This document shows positions 22,385 to 32,848 of a stretch of DNA of 64,000 nt, piece after piece. Origin of the DNA: Daphnia pulex. Taxonomy: Eukaryota > Arthropoda > Branchiopoda > Diplostraca > Daphniidae. How positions within the stretch are numbered: position 1 is the first letter of the stretch; every line of letters starts with the position of its first letter. The DNA is taken from contig NC_060019.1 in the NCBI RefSeq assembly GCF_021134715.1, positions 5,394,001 to 5,458,000 of the forward strand, in the 5' to 3' direction. The notes beneath the pieces were generated by a model. The model was not told the DNA's origin, searched no databases, and worked only from the letters and a program-made list of their open reading frames with translations. The position numbers and the translations under genes are program-made.

Positions 22385-23305
22385 TGAATGTTTCTTGTTG
22401 AATTCGATAAAAAATGAAGAAAATAAAGGAAATAAATGCAATTTTTTGAATGTTTTTTGTTGAATGCGATAAAAAATGAAGAAAATAAAGGAAAGAATGC
22501 AATTTTTGGAATGTTTTTTGTTTGAATGTGATGAAAAATGAAGAAAATAAAGGAAATAATGCAATTTTTTTAATGTTTCTTGTTGAATGCGATGAAAAAA
22601 GAAGAAAATAAAGGAAATAATGCAATTTTTTGAATGTTTTTTGTTGAATGCGATAAAAAATGAAGAAAATAAAGGAAATAATGCAATTTTTGGAATGTTT
22701 TTTGTTTGAATGTGATGAAAAATGAAGAAAATAAAGGAAATAATGCAATTTATTTAAAGTTTCTTGTTGAATGCGATGAAAAAAGAAGAAAATAAAGGAA
22801 ATAATGCAATTTTTTAATGTTTCTTGTTGAATGCGATGAAAAATGAAGAAAATAAAGGAAATAATGCAATTTTTGGAATGTTTTTGTTGAATGCGATAAA
22901 AAATGAAGAAAATAAAGAAAATAATGCAATTTTTGGAATGTTTCTTCTTGAATGGGATGAAAAATGAAGAAAATAAAGGAAATAATGCAATTTTTTTAAT
23001 GTTTCTTGTTGAATGCGATGAAAAATGAAGAAAATAAAGGAAATAATGCAATTTTTTGAATGCTTCTTGTTGAATGTGATGAAAAATGAAGAAAATAAAG
23101 GAAATCATGCAATTTTTGGAATGTTTCTTGTTGATTGCAATGAAAAATGAAGAAAATAAAGGAAATAATGCAATTTTTGGAATGTTTCTTGTTGAATGCG
23201 ATGAAAAATGAAGAAAATAATGCAATTTTTTGAATGTTTCTTGTTGAATGCGATGAAAAATGAAGAAAATAATGCAATTTTTTGAATGTTTCTTGTTGAA
23301 TGCAA
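22385..23305. repeat. 60-bp AT-rich satellite, about 15 units
   Basis: Tandem units of about 60 bp contain GAATGTTTCTTGTTGAATGC followed by GATGAAAAATGAAGAAAATA and AAGGAAATAATGCAATTTTT, with small indels. The period is divisible by three, so the minus strand shows a long ORF with a 20-residue repeat, which I do not consider a gene. It directly abuts the 10-bp satellite and is interrupted at 23,306 by a TIR element. Further copies lie at 32,638-32,848. Confidence 0.93.
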
Positions 23306-23475
23306 CCCGAGAAGAATTTTTCCGTGCGGAAACGAGATTAAAATATTTCAAATCAATGCAAAAAGCGTTCGAAATCAATTCATAAAAGCGGATTTCAAAT
23401 TAGTAAAAAACGCTGTTGTTTCCGTTTTGAAACTATATTAAAACTGTAAATCGGACCATTTAAATCCCGTTTAAT

Positions 23476-24730
23476 TATTGTCATAAAATCAAATCGATAT
23501 TCAGTTTTTTAAACTTAAAATATCGATAATAAGTTTTAAAATTCACACAGCATTTTTAATGACAGATACTTTATTTTCCATTCATTTACAATAACATCTC
23601 GAGAGTGACATGATAGTAAAACGAAATCAGCAAACAATTTTACTATCAGTGAAATTCGTTAAATAAGTTCAAAATTTCGAAGAAGTCGAGTTGGTGGCGC
23701 ACAACTAATACATAGCAGGTGATAGTTATAATTACAAAGCCGGTATACATACTTTTTTACCAGTGTAGGAACGCTTATCGCTCGTCGAGCTGATCCTCAT
23801 CATCGTCCATAGCTGTCGCTTATCAATAAAGAGACTCGCCCATATATCTCGACGTGGTCTCCTAGCAACAGAATCAGACGGAAGTTGCCTGTTATGAATA
23901 ACAATAGAATGGAAAATGTCAAACAGAGGCACAAAAGAATGCAAAATTTAATTAAGGAAAGAATAATCATTAAAATCTGCGTGTGGTTAGCGAATCTTGT
24001 CGTCTGCTGTCGCTTTAGGAACAAGTTCTTTAAGAAAAGGGAAAGTAAAACAAAATCATATCTAATTGTGTCGCCAATTTCGACCAGTCGAGAAACGACA
24101 GATGGAGCGAATATAAAATTGAGTCTGCACGGCATATGGAATCCTGAGACCATCCGGTTGATGTGCACCACTGACAGCCGTAACCGAACATGTTGACCGC
24201 ATCATTACAAAAATCGACGCTCAAATCAGACCTGTTCATCTGCTCTTCACTTGCTTTTTTGTGTAATGTAAACAGGTGCAGAGTTGGACGTCGCATTCTC
24301 ACATCGTTCACATCCATCGAACTGATCGCTAGACGTTTGCCTTTTTAGTTATACGACTCCATTCCAGCACTTTCTCACGAAATTCCTTCCGCCTGCCCTG
24401 CAGCGCAAAGATAAAAAGATGGTTTTTCACGGTCGACTATATATTATGACGTCAGCTATTAAATTAACTTGACTCTAGACTATATAACGGCATACCCGGA
24501 TAACTGCGGATGGTTTACAATAGCTGGAAACAGCAGCAGTTCACATTCTTTTGTTTAATATCCAATGTGGAAATGCCGAAAAGGGACGAGTTGTGGAACG
24601 GCATCAGTTGCTGCCAATTTCTCCACTGCAACACGTCAGCTATAGCGAGACGTGCGATTGAGCGGAAAGTTCAAAGTGGTTGAAATGGTCAAATCGAAGC
24701 GGAAATTTAAATTGAAACTTTGGATCAAAA
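23476..24730. other. Unassigned left interior of the TIR element
   Basis: About 1.25 kb between the left terminal repeat and the palindrome arm. The short ORFs on both strands near 23,800-24,200 show no family signature I recognise and overlap each other antisense. I see no RNA gene or tandem repeat here. Confidence 0.5.
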
Positions 24731-24784
24731 TTATTTAGCGAGTGGCGGCTTGGTGTACGTTTCATCTTGCCTGTAAAAATTAAC

Positions 24785-25392
24785 CATGATTTAAGAATAA
24801 TTAGACCGTCCTGCTCAACAATCTACAATGGGATCTTACCTTATCTTTGTTGGCTGACTCAACTTAATGATGAGCATGAAACAGCTCCTGCTGGAACTTT
24901 GACTTCTCTTTCTTAGCCCTGAATGAGAAGTAAAATTGAATTAGTTTTAATCAATAAATGTAGTTACTTGCACTCAGATTAAAGTTAATATCGTGTTAAT
25001 ATTTACTGGAAAATATGTGAGGGACGCAACATTATTCTTTGCATGGTTTTTAATAAATGCCATGTCATAAGTTCCTTTATTAAGTTCTTGAATTCGACTT
25101 AAGTCATTTCTGAAATGAACTGAAAAATACCAACTTAACAGGTTACAGTTATTAATCAAAACACATTCAATATTAATTATCTTGCATATCAACTATTATA
25201 AGTCCAGCAAAACAATTATCCACTTATTTTCCATACCTGTGTTGAACTGTCATCAATATTTTAATTGTGATAATTAACAGCATCTGCTGCAACTTTGCCT
25301 TCTCTTTCTCAGCCCTGAATGAACTACTTGATGAATCTTTGCTGGAAGAATTATCAATTGGGTGTTTCTTAGCTGTTTATGAAATTTAACTT
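24785..25392 (-). pseudogene. Paramyosin exon fragments, left palindrome arm
   Basis: Read on the minus strand, 25,392-25,271 encodes a serine-rich run followed by FRAEKEKAKLQQ. The region 24,925-24,785 encodes FRAKKEKSKFQQEL, then a stop, then VESANKDK next to a GTAAG donor-like site. These resemble the coiled-coil block of arthropod paramyosin around the conserved KSKFQAEV...AQVESVNKEK region. Two partial copies in one arm, an in-frame stop and missing neighbouring exons show that it is a non-functional captured fragment. Confidence 0.6.
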
Positions 25393-25489
25393 CTTCGCCT
25401 AGATATTAAATAATAAATATAACTATATTATATAGAACACATTGGTGAAACTGAGCAGTGGCAGTCACTGAGCCTTTTTTCCATTATTA

Positions 25490-25606
25490 GAGTGGGCAAA
25501 CTTCTTGCAAGAAATAACCACATAGCCGGATTCCAAGAACCACAAAGGGGCTTCCGATATACCCAGCTCCTCCAGTGAATAACATCTTTTCAGTCAAACA
25601 GTCTTA
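25490..25606 (-). pseudogene. GALE-like N-terminal exon fragment, left arm
   Basis: On the minus strand this encodes MLFTGGAGYIGSPFVV followed, after a one-base frame change, by ESGYVVISCKKF. TGGxGYIGS is the NAD-binding Rossmann signature of extended short-chain dehydrogenases; the closest pattern I recall is UDP-glucose 4-epimerase. The histidine usual after GYIGS is replaced by proline, and the frame is broken. The opposite arm holds an inverted copy at 28,069. Confidence 0.6.
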
Positions 25607-26369
25607 AATGTGAAAACTTGTTTAGAGCTGATCACCAAGTTTGAGCAATACCTATGATAAGAAATATATTTATTTAAAAATATTTGTTCTAGCACAATAA
25701 ACAATTCTTACCTTTCCATTTCCAAATTAGGAAAACACAGACGTCTACACCAAGTTTCTTAGAAATGAAAACATATCGTCTGCTTCACAAACATAACTAT
25801 TGATTTGAAAACAAATGACAAACGACAGTCGTTTAGAACATTAAAAGAAACACAACTAACAAATTTACGAAGAAAACTTTCACCATGAAAATATGCTTGA
25901 ATAGAATATAATCAAGGATTCTGACAGATCTATCAATTGGCGACCACTCTGGTTGAACTGACATACACTACAGCAGACGACTGTTGAAAATTGTCAAAAC
26001 GTCAACAACAAGCACGCCGGATGGGTCTAATCAGCATATAGCTATAGAGCGCACTAAACCAAAAATATGAAAAAAACAAATCACTGAAATCAGTTGACAG
26101 TTATATTCTTGAAAATAAATAAGAAGTTAACAAAGTTAGATTCAGTTATGAACATTGTTATCATTGTGGCTTATGAGGCGATGAGGCAAAAATATAAAAC
26201 AAAAATAATTCTAAATCCTAAATGTACATATAGCTACGCCCTTTTTCTTTTTGTTGATTAATGCTATTTAGCTTATTATACCAAAGTATTGCTTTGTTTA
26301 GCTACCATTCGTTTCAAATTGCCGTTTCCTTTGTTTTTTCTACTTTACTGTGACGTTTAAAGGGATTTC

Positions 26370-26422
26370 TAGCTTAGAGGTATAGCGGTGGCATACGACA
26401 TCAATGAACTAGAGTTCGAACC
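26370..26422 (+). other. tRNA-like A/B box module, left arm
   Basis: The A box TAGCTTAGAGG (26,370-26,380) fits TRGYNNARNNG exactly and the B box GTTCGAACC (26,414-26,422) fits GWTCRANNC. The distance between them is that of a tRNA gene. Stems are poor, so it is a tRNA-derived promoter-like sequence rather than a tRNA. An inverted copy lies in the right arm at about 27,305-27,368. Confidence 0.55.
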
Positions 26423-26812
26423 GGGAAGAATACATAAAGCTTTATCACAAGTTTAATCAGGTGTGTTTTAGCGAATTATGTTGACACATCATAATTATTT
26501 TCAGCAATTTAACATTTCAAACATCGTGTGTTAAAAATTAACGTAATACGAAAATGTAAACAAAGATTTACTGCTTGTAAAAAATTCGAATGGAATTCAT
26601 TTATATCAAAATAAAAAACGGCAAATGTAAGTTTCTTAAAAATTTCAAAATAGATCCGATTATTTCGTGACCAAAAAATAGAAAATTGAGAATTCTGCTG
26701 AAAAAGCAAAAGCAACAGAAAAACTCTAATAAAACTCTTTCAAGACGCGTTTACTTTAAGTACAGCCGAACGGAATGGTCCTGCGACGCTAAAATTCTTC
26801 TCGGCCCGAGAA

Positions 26813-26892
26813 GTTGTCTTATGGCGCAAATGGGCTTTTCATATTGCTTTTTATATATTTAATTTTTTAGCCCATTTGCGCCATAAGACAAC
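26813..26892. repeat. Perfect 24-bp inverted repeat near palindrome centre
   Basis: The arm at 26,813-26,836 (GTTGTCTTATGGCGCAAATG plus GGCT) is exactly complementary to 26,869-26,892, around a 32-nt AT-rich loop. It begins right after the internal CCCGAGAAG terminus at 26,805. Confidence 0.9.
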
Positions 26893-26993
26893 ACGGCCGG
26901 CGTCGGAGTGATCCGATACTTTGTGCGCCACTTTTCTAGGCATAAAAAATAGGGGAAAAAATCTGAAAAAAATTTAGACAATAGAAAAAACGT

Positions 26994-27035
26994 AAAATGA
27001 CATAAATCCCAAGTTTGGTGAATTTATGTCATTTT
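26994..27035. repeat. Perfect 14-bp inverted repeat in palindrome centre
   Basis: AAAATGACATAAAT (26,994-27,007) and ATTTATGTCATTTT (27,022-27,035) are exact inverted copies around a 14-nt loop. It sits in the non-palindromic centre between the two large arms. Confidence 0.9.
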
Positions 27036-27304
27036 TTCGATTTTTGCCACCCGAAAAACCCATATGAAAAATACACGCCGCCTTATGGAACGGTGCGGGG
27101 TGATCCCATACTTATGGAGGGGACTGTAAATGAATTCCATTCGAATTTTTTACAAGCAGTAAATCTTTGTTTACATTTTCGTATTACGTTAATTTTTAAC
27201 ACACGATGTTTGGAATGTTAAATTGCTGAAAATAATTATGATGTGTCAACATAATTCGCTAAAACACACCTGATTAAACTTGTGATAAAGCTTTATGTAT
27301 TCTT

Positions 27305-27368
27305 CCGGGTCCGAACTCTAGTTCATTGATGTCGTATGCCACCGCTATACCTCTAAGCTAGAAATCCC
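27305..27368 (-). other. tRNA-like A/B box module, right arm
   Basis: Inverted copy of the module at 26,370-26,422. The B box region reads GAGTTCGGACC on the minus strand (one change from the left arm) and the A box TAGCTTAGAGG is intact. Confidence 0.55.
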
Positions 27369-28068
27369 TTTAAAACAAGTCACAGTAAAGTAGAAAAAAC
27401 AAAGAAAACGGCAATTTGAAACGAATGGTAGCTAAACAAAGCAATACTTTGGTACAATAAGCTAAATAGCATTAATCAACAAAAAGAAAAAAGGCGTAGC
27501 TATTAAGGATTTAGAATTATTTTTGTTTTATATTTTTGCCTCATCGCCTCATAAGCCACAATGATAACAATGTTCATAACTGAATCTAACTTTGTTAACT
27601 TCTTATTTATTTTTAAGAATATAACTGTCAACTGATTTCAGTGATTTGTTTTTTTCATATTTTTGGTTTAGTGCGCTTTATAGCTATATGCTGATTAGAC
27701 CCATTCGGCGTGCTTGTTGTTGACGTTTTGACAATTTTCATCAGTCGTCTGCTGTAGTGTTTGTCAGTTCAACCAGAGTGGTCGCCAATTGATAGAGCTG
27801 TCAGAATCCTTGATTATATTCTATTCAAGCATATTTTCATGGTGAAAGTTTTCTTCGTAAATTTGTTAGTTGTGTTTCTTTTAATGTTCTAAACGACTGT
27901 CGTTTGTCATTTGTTTTCAAATCAATAATTATGTTTGTGAAGCAGACGATATGTTTTCATTTCTAAGAAACTTGGTGTAGACGTCTGTTTTTTTCCTTAA
28001 TTTGGAAAGGTAAGAATTGTTTTTGTGCTAGAACAAATATTTTTATATAATTATGTTTATTATTATAG

Positions 28069-28374
28069 GTGTGTTGACTGAAAAGATGTTTTTCACTGGA
28101 GGATCTGGGTATATCGGAAGCCCCTGTGTAGTTGAGCTTATGGAACTGGCTATCTGGTTATTTCTTGCGAGAAGTTTGGGAAGATTGGCTGCTTCTGGAA
28201 GTGATAGCATTCAGCTAAGGTAAGAATTGTTTATTTTTTCTGTGAGAACAAATGTTTTATATATAATTCTGCTTCTGTTCTTTCAGCCGAGTAATAAAAG
28301 AAATAACCTTAACATTGCCAAGGAATAAGTCATTGGAAAGAATAATTCACTATACAGTAGCGAAGAAGTTAACG
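28069..28374 (+). pseudogene. GALE-like exon pair captured in the TIR element
   Basis: The first exon-like stretch (28,069-28,219) follows TATTATAG and ends at GTAAGA. It encodes MFFTGGSGYIGSPCVVELM, then continues in another frame as ETGYLVISCEKF. The second (28,287-28,374) follows TTTCAG and encodes RVIKEIT, like the ESLxRVxEIT segment that follows the Rossmann loop in UDP-glucose 4-epimerases. Retained intron borders show capture of genomic DNA, not of a reverse-transcribed mRNA. Frame breaks and absence of the catalytic domain (YxxxK) make it non-functional. Other extended SDR enzymes are an alternative source. Confidence 0.6.
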
Positions 28375-28416
28375 GTAATTTTTAGTTAAAGCGTTTTGAT
28401 GTGACAAGACGAGAAG

Positions 28417-29271
28417 GGTCCCGGACATTCAGGCCAGTGACATTCAGGCCAGCGACATTCAGGCCAGTGGCCTGAAAGTCCCCGCCACTGGCCTGAATAT
28501 CCAGATCCTTTCAGGCCAGTGGCTGCAGTAGGTAAATTTTCATTTTCAAAGTCTTGAGTCTCTACATACCGTGTTTTGGCGTTTTAGAAATATTTTTAGA
28601 AGTTGGGAAGGGGTCAGTTTCGTGTCGTCAGAAGAAGTCAGTTTTAGCATAAATTTAGGGAAGTTTTTCATTACAAGTCCCAACAAAACAATTTTGAGCA
28701 GAAAATACCAAAAACAAAAGAAAATCGTTACAAAAACAAACAAAAATAGATACAAAGTAACGTTGGGGTTGTTGATTGGAAGAATAGGTAGTAAGCGAGC
28801 TCTTCAATGTTCAATTCACATGAAGCTTTTAAATTTTATCTGAGACGACATCTTATCTCTGAAAGAGTTCCCGAGTTAAAATTTCTCACTGACATGCGAA
28901 ATTGAACGTAAATTTGATGAGGATAAAAAAATCCGTCAGATAAAGATTTACATTACAGAACCGTCGTGTGTTTGTAAAGTTCAAGTATTTTATAGTAATG
29001 GAGGTAATGGTTTAAAAAGTTCATGATACACTTCCTAACTTGCCATTCAACTAAAATTTAAAATCACAGACTATTTCAATAAAATTCGCTGCCTTTTTTC
29101 TTTAGTGTAGGAGGGTGATTCATTTAAGGCTAGAGTTATTATTATGGCAAAGGGGTTGGCTATATCTTACTGACCTGAAAGTCCCCTGGCACTGGCCTGA
29201 ATGTCTCCCGTTCAGGCCAGTGGCCTGAATGTCGCTGGCCTGAACGTCGCTGGCCTGAACGTCACACATCC
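28417..29271. mobile_element. 855-bp element with iterated GACATTCAGGCCAG ends
   Basis: Both ends consist of several head-to-tail copies of a motif of about 16 bp, GACATTCAGGCCAGTG, arranged as inverted ends. The element is flanked on both sides by GACGAGAAG (28,408-28,416 and 29,272-29,280). A 9-bp duplication fits a Mutator-like mechanism; 8-9 bp would also fit Merlin or hAT. The interior holds a 90-codon chance ORF with no recognisable domain. It interrupts the captured gene segment between the GALE-like and paramyosin exons. Confidence 0.75.
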
Positions 29272-30207
29272 GACGAGAAGAATAATTCTCTATTTTGAAA
29301 ATATCTAGGCGAAGAAGTTAAATCTCAAGAACAGAGCTGAGAAACGCCCAATTGATAATTCTACCAGCAAAGATTCATCAAGTAGTTCATTCAGGGCTGA
29401 GAAAGAGAAGTCAAAGTTGCAGAAGGAGCTGTTGTCTTCTGTTGTCTCTGCAGTCGAGCTTATTTCTCAAGTTGAGTCAGCCTACAAAGAAAGGGTAAGA
29501 TCCCATTGTAGATTATTCTTGAACAGGATGGAATAATTATTCTTAAATCGTTGTTTATTTTTCCAGGCCAGTTAAAACGTACACCAAGCAAGTAGAAAAG
29601 TTAGATTTGCAATTTCATGAGTACACACTCTAAGTGGAAGAGCTCAACAGCATATTATCGACATCAGCAGCCACAAAACTCGTTTGTATACTTTTAGACA
29701 ACGATTAATTTACAATTTGTTGAAGGAAAATGATCACAATAAATTTATTTGGTCAACAGGAAAAAATTGAAGCAAGGAAGTTCGATAGCTGAAATTCAGC
29801 TACGAAAATATCAGCTATATGAAGACCAACTCAGCTCAAGCCAAATCAATTCGAACATCTGCGTCGTCGCTTTGAAGACAAAGAACGCATCCAAGTAGGC
29901 CTACGAACCCAGCTAGCATGTCTTTATTGGTAAAATATTTTTTTCCGACAATATTCTTCGATCGATAACCCACATATTGGTATAATATTATATTATTACT
30001 TTGTTGCGACAAGGTGGCTGTCAAATTTTTTTGTTATTTTCCGAATAAATGACTATTATCAAAGATGAATAAATTAATATAATTTTTTTTATTTTCCCAA
30101 TAACGGATCATTAAATAAGGAATACATCGTTTTCTATGAAAAAGCTATAGTCTTTTACATTTACCACATGTTCAAAATCCTAAATGATTGGATAGCTGCT
30201 GCCTTTT

Positions 30208-30282
30208 AATCCGAGAGTGGGTTTGAACCATCGTCATTTATGTCACCAATCCAACACTATAACCACTACACCAGAAACGGTG
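30208..30282 (-). other. tRNA-like module, minus strand copy
   Basis: On the minus strand the A-box-like TGGTGTAGTGG is followed by TTATAGTGTTGGATTGGTGA and the B box GGTTCAAACCC. It matches the plus-strand module at 31,117 closely. It is probably tRNA-derived; the stems are degenerate. Confidence 0.55.
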
Positions 30283-31116
30283 ATGAAATTAAAGTCCCTA
30301 TGTGACCAGATGGATAGTGCATACTTACACATTGTCATGGTTATAGCCCAGCGTGAGCATAATCGATTTAATTTACATCAGTGTAGGGATTTATGATTAT
30401 TGAGACTATTTGTTTCATAAGTCATTTGTTTGCTGAAAGTGGGTTTGAACCAACCTCCATAGAGTTACCTATATGGATATATAATAATAGCAGTTTTAAC
30501 ATTTCATCTCCTTAACGTTTAAGATAAATTATATCACGTTAGCGTGAAGGTAGAGTTTTAAATTCGAAGTACGTAAGTTAGTTATTCGAGACTTGTGCAA
30601 GATTTGGATTTTAAGACAATTGGATTGTTCAGTTAGGCAATTGTATGCAGAACTAACGAATTGAATACGATATAAAACATTTAGGATTTTGAACGCATGT
30701 TAAATGTAAAAGACTATAGCTTTTTCATAAAAAAAGGATTTATTATTTTTTTAATGGTCCGTTATTGGGAAAATAACAAAAAGGTAATATTGATTTATTC
30801 ATCTTTCTTAATAGTCATTCATTGGGAAAACAACAAAACAATTTAACAGCCACCTTGACGCAGCAAAGTAATAATCTAATATTATACCAATATGTGGGTT
30901 ATCGACCGAAGAATATTCTTGGAAAACAATATTTTACCATTACGGGACTAGACTTATCCATTTTTTGGCCGTAGGGACATCCTTGGCGAGATCCTCTGCA
31001 TCTGTCTATTGCCTGTCGGGACAAACCCCTATAGGGAATCCCCTCTTAACCCTTGTTTACGTGGCTTCTAGAAGTTAAAAACTGTTATTGCCTCAAGTCG
31101 AAAAACATTCATAACA

Positions 31117-31178
31117 CCGCTGTTGGTGTAGTGGTTATAGCATTGGATTGGTGACTCAAGGTGTGATGGTTCAAACCC
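31117..31178 (+). other. tRNA-like module, plus strand copy
   Basis: A box TGGTGTAGTGG (31,124-31,134), an anticodon-like loop TTGGTGA (central GGT, threonine type) and B box GGTTCAAACCC are in order and spacing of a tRNA gene. The arms pair imperfectly. It lies inside the CCCAGCTAGCA-ended element. Confidence 0.55.
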
Positions 31179-32637
31179 ACTCAAGACCAAACACAAGAAC
31201 TTGTCTAATAACAAGTGTAAGATGAATAAATATTCCACGCTGGACTATATAATCATAAACACACCAAACAGATTACCGTTAAAATTTTAAAAGTAGTAAA
31301 ACTGTTATTTCACCAATAAAAGTAAAATAAATAAAACAAATTGAAAAAATATTGTGAGCCAACAAATTTGGGTGCAAAAATATATTGGAAAAATATTTAA
31401 AAAAATTATTTTACCAACATCTCAATTGTAGGAATATAATATTTTAGCAATATTTGGGAAATATACTCTGCTAGCTGGGTTACTACGCTTCAAAGAAAGA
31501 TAATCGTAACAAGGCGACAGATTTCCCATTTGACTCACGAACTGGACAAAACTTGCGAACTAAAAGATCAGCTTACCCGTGAAAACAAGAAATTGGGCGG
31601 TAAGTTCATATTTTCCGAGTTTCACTTGTTATTTTCTAACAATATTTCCTTTACTAGATGAGAACGCTGAGCTTAAGAGCCAGTACTCTGAACTCAACTG
31701 CAGATTCCATGAGTTAGAAATTGAATATCGCCGTCTAGAAAATGAACGTGAAGAGTTGGCATACAAAGAAATTCAGAGGCTGTACGTATATTGACATAAA
31801 ATGATTTAGATCATTTGATTAACAATTCTTTTTTTTATAACATTCAGGCTCGTAACGGTGAAGAATATCGCGTTCCACTCATGGAGTTGCAGCTGAGATG
31901 AACGAATTCATCTCGATATGGAACACTTCATGATAAGGAGGAAGAGCTCGAGTCTATCAAGTAATTTTATCGGCTTTAGCGCTAAAGTAATTCCATTTGA
32001 GTCACTTATTCACTCCCAAACGATTTTGAAAAGAAGCAAATGTCTATATCTAAATCAACCAGTTGAACTCTCGTCTTGTCCATGCGGAAACCAAGTTGAA
32101 AACCGAAATTCAGCGCATCCGGAAGAAGATGATGATCACAATCACCGAGTTGGAAATGACATTCGACGTTGCAAACAAAAACAACATATCGAGCAATCCC
32201 TGCAAATTGTCGTAAATTTTTAGGCAACTATCCAATTATCTGGTTTTTTGCATATTATCAGTTTCTACTCTTGATATGTTGTATTGAAATTTGGCAAAGT
32301 TTTCATTTTGTATAATTTAAAGGAAAACAATAAATATCTTGAGATTTATTTTTATCAAATCTGCTTTCCACCTCAGTGTAAGATCTATCGTATTAATTTT
32401 AGATCACATTGTTGAATTCATGTATAAAGCATTTAAAGATGGACTTGGAATGCAATTGTGTGTCAATTGAAGAATGGATTTAAATGGTCCGATTTACAGT
32501 TTTTATTCAGTTTCAAAACGGAAACAACAGCGTTATTTTACAGTTTATTATCCGCTCTTTCGTATACATTCGAAACGCTTTTCGCAGCGATTTGATGGAT
32601 AAAAAATTCGAATCCGGACGGAAAAATTCTTCTCGGG

Positions 32638-32848
32638 ATAAAAAATGAAGAAAATAAAGGAAATAATGCAATTTTTTGAATGTTTCTTGTTGAATGGGAT
32701 GACAAATAAAGAAAATAAAGGAAATAATGCAATTTTTTGAATATTTCTTGTTGAATGCGATAAAAAATGAAGAAAATAAAGAAAATAATGCAATTTTTGG
32801 AATGTTTCTTGTTGAATGCGATGAAAAAAAAAGAAAATAAAGGAAATA
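32638..32848. repeat. 60-bp satellite, right remnant (about 3.5 units)
   Basis: Same unit and orientation as 22,385-23,305. It is bounded on the left by the right end of the 9.3-kb element and on the right by the CCCAGGTAAC end of the next transposon, so two independent insertions hit one array. Confidence 0.92.

Follow-up and report, generated by a model that had tools for sequence, protein, structure and literature searches.

Two family members meet head to head in a satellite

The window is a 64,000-nucleotide stretch of the Daphnia pulex genome, C3:5394001-5458000 (the genome comprises 133.2 Mb in 13 contigs, of which this one is C3), and coordinates without a contig name are window positions. 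Its 9,332-bp span at 23306-32637 carries pieces of host genes, GALE and paramyosin among them, between terminal inverted repeats (TIRs). The outer ends, 23306-23467 and 32476-32637, are 162-bp inverted termini of 79-80% identity; they break off a 61-bp satellite that continues almost in register on the far side, which bears out the description of matched termini interrupting a satellite in a first-pass annotation of this DNA. When the whole span was used to search the genome, the matches fell into separate parts and not along the whole span. The span is two inverted members of one transposon family that touch at their inner ends, together with three later insertions that make up ~2.7 kb of it. 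At the junction (26797-26813), CTTCTCGG is followed directly by CCCGAGAAG. The features are as follows.

22385-23303, no strand: 61-bp satellite array, left side (Tandem Repeats Finder)
23306-26804, plus: left family member, complete, 3,499 bp, from terminus A (outer) to terminus B (inner); 99.3% identical to a solitary copy at C9:5911881-5915384
23306-23467, plus: terminus A of the left member, beginning CCCGAGAAGAATTTTTCC
23781-24750, plus: captured C10 piece with 5' flanking DNA plus the first coding exon, from a host gene without Pfam match; donor C10:16175117-16176115, minus strand, 77%
24685-24738, plus: captured start codon and 16 more codons, then a stop (MVKSKRKFKLKLWIKII; donor MAKSKRKFKLKLWIKIIQ)
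24769-25038, minus: paramyosin fragment captured by the left member, 83.5% identical to the gene
25276-25322, minus: second short paramyosin piece, left member, 47 bp, 91.5%
25468-25576, minus: GALE exon captured by the left member, 76.5% identical to the C7 gene
26791-26804, minus: terminus B, the inner end of the left member; the plus strand reads AAAATTCTTCTCGG
26805-26813, plus: remnant of inner terminus B, right member (CCCGAGAAG)
26805-32637, minus: right family member, B end truncated, with three insertions; relatives lack the inserts
26814-27126, no strand: central insertion in place of the right member's B end; related sequence in L043
28086-28178, plus: GALE exon captured by the right member, 78.7% identical to the C7 gene
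28417-29271, no strand: later insertion flanked by a 9-bp target duplication, GACGAGAAG; L040 has the empty site
29387-29888, plus: captured paramyosin block 1, right member, 80%
29908-31479, no strand: later insertion of 1,572 bp, a high-copy element whose inverted ends read CCCAGCTAGCA
31481-32263, plus: captured paramyosin block 2, right member, 84%
32476-32637, minus: terminus A of the right member
32637-32848, no strand: 61-bp satellite array, right side (Tandem Repeats Finder)

The first-pass annotation had placed GALE-like and paramyosin-like sequence, with introns, in both arms and in the same outer-to-inner order, and this is what we found. The arms are nevertheless unequal: the left one holds the two short paramyosin pieces and ~970 bp from the C10 locus, the right one two long paramyosin blocks, and comparison with the C10 donor gave no match in the right arm. 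The third donor piece, 23781-24750, is not mentioned in that annotation.

Copies and termini elsewhere in the genome

Each half of the span has relatives that stand alone. The copy of the left member on C9 (L039) has both termini and is flanked by the repeat TAT. The right member aligns with a solitary 3,905-bp element on C10 (L040, C10:5919405-5923309) once two insertions are set aside; further relatives are L041 (C10:7749373-7752084), L042 (C4:2367803-2369328) and the more distant L048 (C2), and all four of these relatives, two on C10 and one each on C4 and C2, lack inserts at the corresponding sites. The alignments between copies end at the terminal motif amid unlike surroundings in three groups: the window's left member with L039, its right member with L040 and L041, and L046 with L047. 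The latter two (on C11 and C5) have 148 bp of terminus in common with the window members and their relatives, at 69-75% identity. Some copies are truncated or rearranged (L041, L042 and a solo fragment at C9:5671047).

The family terminus CCCGAGAAGAATTTT occurs at 87 sites in the genome with at most one mismatch, 18 of them exact, as compared with 15 sites for the reversed motif. Both ends and the cargo were read for the window's left member, L039, L040 and L044, and for L075, which was recognised by its end motif only. L041, L043, L046 and L047 were seen with one end, and these four, like L042 and L048, have one terminus or none that passes the motif search. Host pieces were found in all 12 long members examined (both window members, L039-L044, L046-L048 and L075), nearly all of which had been picked by similarity to the window span, so that 12 of 12 is not an estimate of a rate. 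Eight end pairs were matched by distance and orientation, and the interior was read for one, pair 73/74, which is L075.

Both flanks were read at 11 sites beyond the window pair, namely L039, L040, L044 and the eight end pairs. Two were dropped from the count: pair 69/70, which is a mirror image of 71/72 and has no repeat, and L040, whose repeat GG lies between unrelated flanks. Identical flanks were found at six of the nine remaining, independent sites, four of 2 bp and two of 3 bp. By chance, 10 of 72 mismatched pairings showed a repeat, and 25 of 10,000 permutations reached six.

Two further arrangements of ends were observed. Family-like termini abut head to head a second time at L047:1809-1841 (CTACTCGGGGCCCGAGTA), and the related end pairs at C11:6503953-6506569 and C11:6515304-6517171 have mirror-image flanks, which suggests an inverted duplication of that region.

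The captured pieces come from several unrelated host loci

The cargo in the window is ~76-84% identical to its donor loci, and the family as a whole carries pieces of five host donors, probably six. Donor sequence was read for paramyosin, the GALE exon, the C10 locus and 601 bases of the C1 locus; the C5 locus and that at 7.5 Mb on C3 are given from match coordinates.

The paramyosin donor lies just beyond the window and ~47 kb from the pair (C3:5473389-5475310). Its captured pieces retain introns and are 80-84% identical to it, the 47-bp piece 91.5%. The gene is intact in the stretch read: a 731-amino-acid query matched D. pulex paramyosin with 100% identity over 100% of its length, with D. 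magna and D. sinensis next at 95%. Myosin heavy chain was rejected as the source; it gave the top matches among solved structures, but no paramyosin came up from the structure library even at E 10, and the protein search returned paramyosin. The GALE cargo is an N-terminal exon of a gene on C7, and is also present in L044 (77%) and L048 (73%); the stretch read of a second GALE gene, on C5, gave no match to it. The piece at 23781-24750 comprises upstream DNA of the C10 gene as well as its first coding exon.

Two more donors, and probably a third, were found in members outside the window. L044 (C8) holds 1.6 kb at 77-82% from C5:9220563-9223240, with broken frames that encode an EGF domain as well as a fibrillin-like part. 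L046 and L047 hold 1.9 kb at 78% from C1:496951-498826, which encodes a PPR protein; its structure matches are mostly to designed or other PPR proteins, with one stretch matching LRPPRC, the mitochondrial leucine-rich PPR protein (5e-7). L075 (C12), whose ends read CCCGAGGAGAATTTT, contains parts of the gene for the nucleoprotein TPR at 79-88% to C3:7495707-7498152, and this nucleoporin is probably the sixth donor.

Some neighbouring pieces in L044 and L075, at most 2 bp apart within the element, are separated by 66, 953, 564 and 832 bp at the other locus. The joins are at L075:3431 and 3768 and at L044:3748 and 4370, and both L075 joins keep the frame open. A paramyosin fragment 90% like block 2 of the right member was also seen at C9:5671047-5671832 (L045); the motif search of the 9.9 kb read there yielded no termini.

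An intact local gene is ruled out by stops and indels in the captured pieces: stop codons interrupt the paramyosin sequence at 5 of 353 aligned codons in L040, 3 of 273 in the right arm and 1 of 25 in the left arm. None of the donor loci lies between two of the 87 family-terminus sites; the closest approach is at the C7 GALE gene, 9.9 kb from a site with one mismatch. The gene capture proposed at first reading is thus supported on both points that could have refuted it: the parents are elsewhere, paramyosin intact on C3 and GALE on C7, the exons here are broken, and the termini are repeated genome-wide and recur around other captured genes, fibrillin-like (C5), PPR/LRPPRC-like (C1) and probably TPR (C3:7.5 Mb).

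Age and fate of the cargo

The paramyosin sequence of L040 differs from the gene at 31/362, 24/364 and 47/362 of first, second and third codon positions (8.6, 6.6 and 13.0%), and at 68/517 intron positions (13.2%). Divergence at positions free in both lines is therefore about double that at second positions, where the parent is constrained. This excess at third positions and introns is predicted for a dead copy, because only the parent is then under constraint. The same pattern was found in the window's right arm, L041 and L048. It is not seen in the left arm, with 4/27, 2/27 and 0/26 differences over 80 sites, nor in L045, with 12, 9 and 9 of 143 and no stop in 140 codons. Differences between copies of one subfamily are far smaller than those between copy and gene, and capture therefore predates the spread.

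A probable Pack-TYPE family and its likely history

Taken together, these results very probably describe a non-autonomous, multicopy TIR family of D. pulex that acts as a Pack-TYPE element, two copies of which lie head to head in the satellite. As in Pack-TYPE and Pack-TIR elements, TIR ends enclose host sequence that is not of transposable-element origin, the parent lies elsewhere, and copies at unlike sites end at the termini. Members would have taken in genomic segments, exons together with introns, from unrelated host loci, and the loaded elements would then have spread by transposition. Since the paramyosin cargo retains its introns, the template of capture was probably DNA; capture may have involved gap filling or DNA template switching while the element was being repaired or replicated. 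An RNA-mediated route is not favoured, as introns are kept in paramyosin and a splice-acceptor-like site remains in L075, although the directly joined pieces of L044 and L075 count as a reservation.

We think that the family may be moved by a CACTA/TRC-type transposase, which would be supplied in trans, on the strength of termini and flank repeats that resemble TRC. CACTA elements make short target duplications, and the termini of this family start with CCC and are accompanied by a 2-3 bp duplication at the six sites of nine. We do not assign the family to CACTA/TRC, because the places in the genome that encode Transposase_21 (PF02992) lie far from its terminus sites. No transposase domain was found in the ten open reading frames scanned, which came from five sources. 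Two of the Transposase_21 places, C7:6379177 and C8:6104333, are open frames of 783 amino acids each with equal score, which suggests recently copied CACTA elements.

Several observations weigh against this reading. No transposase is tied to the termini, and all three Transposase_21 places are at least 84 kb from any terminus site. The three sites of nine without a flank repeat (63/64, 73/74 and L044) include two that bear cargo (L044 and 73/74), and a reliable repeat was found at only one of three cargo-bearing sites with both ends read (L039); the GG of L040 is unreliable, as its flanks are unrelated, with element on one side and satellite on the other. There is no flank repeat around the window pair either (AA vs AT). 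L075 is linked to the family by its end motif alone, and L047 keeps open frames of 248 and 210 amino acids, so that not all cargo is visibly dead. Finally, the head-to-head junction is compatible with more than one order of events.

The two arms pair almost perfectly over 25732-26603 with 27127-27993. In its inner part the right arm differs from the left arm at 0.7-3.1% of positions, from L039 at 0-2.9% and from L040 at 2.7-25.0% (the 25.0% over 32 columns); these ranges do not include a block bordering the central insertion (10.6%). Outside ~25757 the relation is reversed, with 0-2% mismatches to L040 vs 12-24% to the left arm. The right arm is thus a mosaic, for which gene conversion between the arms would be the simplest account and a recombinant right member the alternative. 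The pair most likely formed when one member inserted beside another's end, and the inner ~850 bp of the arms would then have been homogenised by gene conversion. A foldback element, a single unit made mostly of long inverted repeats, was also considered and set aside, as the palindrome consists of two abutting members.

Alternatively, the pair could be an inverted dimer produced by one aberrant transposition of a single element, with captured pieces lost and gained later. Over their inner parts the arms share 98-99% identity, CTTCTCGGCCCGAGAAG at the junction is symmetric except for its middle base, and the abutment in L047 provides a second head-to-head pair of family-like ends; however, the outer arms fall into different subfamilies and differ in the cargo they captured, and we regard this origin as unlikely.

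It is less likely still that transposition played no part and that the copies, TIR ends included, arose as ordinary segmental duplications or unprocessed pseudogenes. The truncated or rearranged copies, the unlike flanks of L040 and the missing flank repeats of L044 and L075 would fit such an origin, but the copy alignments end at the terminal motif with unlike surroundings, flank repeats in the family exceed chance, and different donors are found inside related termini.

The first-pass annotation had taken the span for one 9.3-kb TIR element, which would have entered the satellite as a single unit. The outermost inverted repeats and the satellite resuming almost in register agree with such an entry; yet 26791-26804 is a family terminus lying inside the span, each half is found alone elsewhere (C9 and C10), none of the matches listed is a copy of the two members joined, and the pair has no 2-3 bp flank repeat. 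We consider a single entry very improbable.

Hairpin or antisense silencing by the pair, suggested in the first-pass annotation, is possible in principle, and so is a captured-promoter hairpin gene that would place a muscle gene 47 kb away under small-RNA control. On its plus strand the left arm matches a paramyosin exon exactly in antisense over 34 and 24 nt, sense matches in the right arm reach 53 nt, and the captured C10 5' end points into the palindrome, where it might drive an RNA whose first half is antisense and whose second half is sense to paramyosin, and which would feed small-RNA control. We give this scheme, like any hairpin-RNA locus acting on paramyosin or GALE, hardly any credence: the near-perfect part of the palindrome lies outside the captured exons, and comparison with the GALE exon stretch read found no exact match as long as 16 nt.

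Other repeats within and beside the pair

The 1,572-bp element at 29908-31479 belongs to a CCC-ended family of its own, with internal inverted repeats of 82-90% and at least 25 further near-full-length copies at 91% or more among the matches listed. Its insertion was accompanied by the loss of ~390 bp that L040 retains. On the left the 61-bp satellite adjoins ~20 kb (3-22382) with many copies of a GC-rich 10-bp unit, CGTGCTCTGG, and with higher-order periodicity at 441-475 bp.

Comparison with known systems

Capture of gene fragments by TIR transposons has been studied mostly in plants, and multicopy animal cases are few. Here capture is broader than at first reading, and the family is a new instance of a known element type, notable for an animal; the donors, copies and divergence of one animal family can all be read in the 133-Mb genome of a species kept in laboratories, and both the capture route, gap filling or fork switching, and the expression of the cargo are directly testable in Daphnia. 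Among the titles listed by literature searches, supplements and subscription papers apart, none dealt with TIR elements that capture genes in Daphnia. A survey of DNA transposons in D. pulex (PMC2884549) lists ten CACTA families in the species; the strings "cccg" and "captur" are absent from its main text, while the sequences sit in its supplements, so the present family may be among them.

TRC, the animal branch of CACTA, has termini that begin with CCC and 2-bp direct repeats at 7 of 14 copies (DeMarco et al. 2006, PMC1636069), which resembles the termini and flanks of the Daphnia family; TRC elements encode Transposase_21, unlike the reading frames scanned here. Plant Pack-CACTA and Pack-TYPE elements (PMC8903248, PMC1947982) are likewise TIR elements with host gene fragments. 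In comparison with Pack-CACTA, the Daphnia family lives in an animal host, its termini read CCCGAG and not CACTA, and no partner transposase was found.

The closest counterparts are the animal Pack-TIRs of Tan et al. 2021 (PMC8277862), who report 370 in 100 animal genomes, none in insects, with four multicopy cases and Ssk-FB4; the main text of that paper contains neither "crustacea" nor "arthropod", and the earlier remark that such capture is rarely documented agrees with it. Like these, the Daphnia family has TIR ends around duplicated host sequence that is not transposable-element DNA, with identifiable parents, and the multicopy Pack-TIRs are also thought to have been amplified by transposition. 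The animal Pack-TIRs described there are mostly hAT or TcMariner and mostly single-copy, whereas in Daphnia one multicopy family has taken up five, probably six, donors, and some of its elements carry two or three of them at once.

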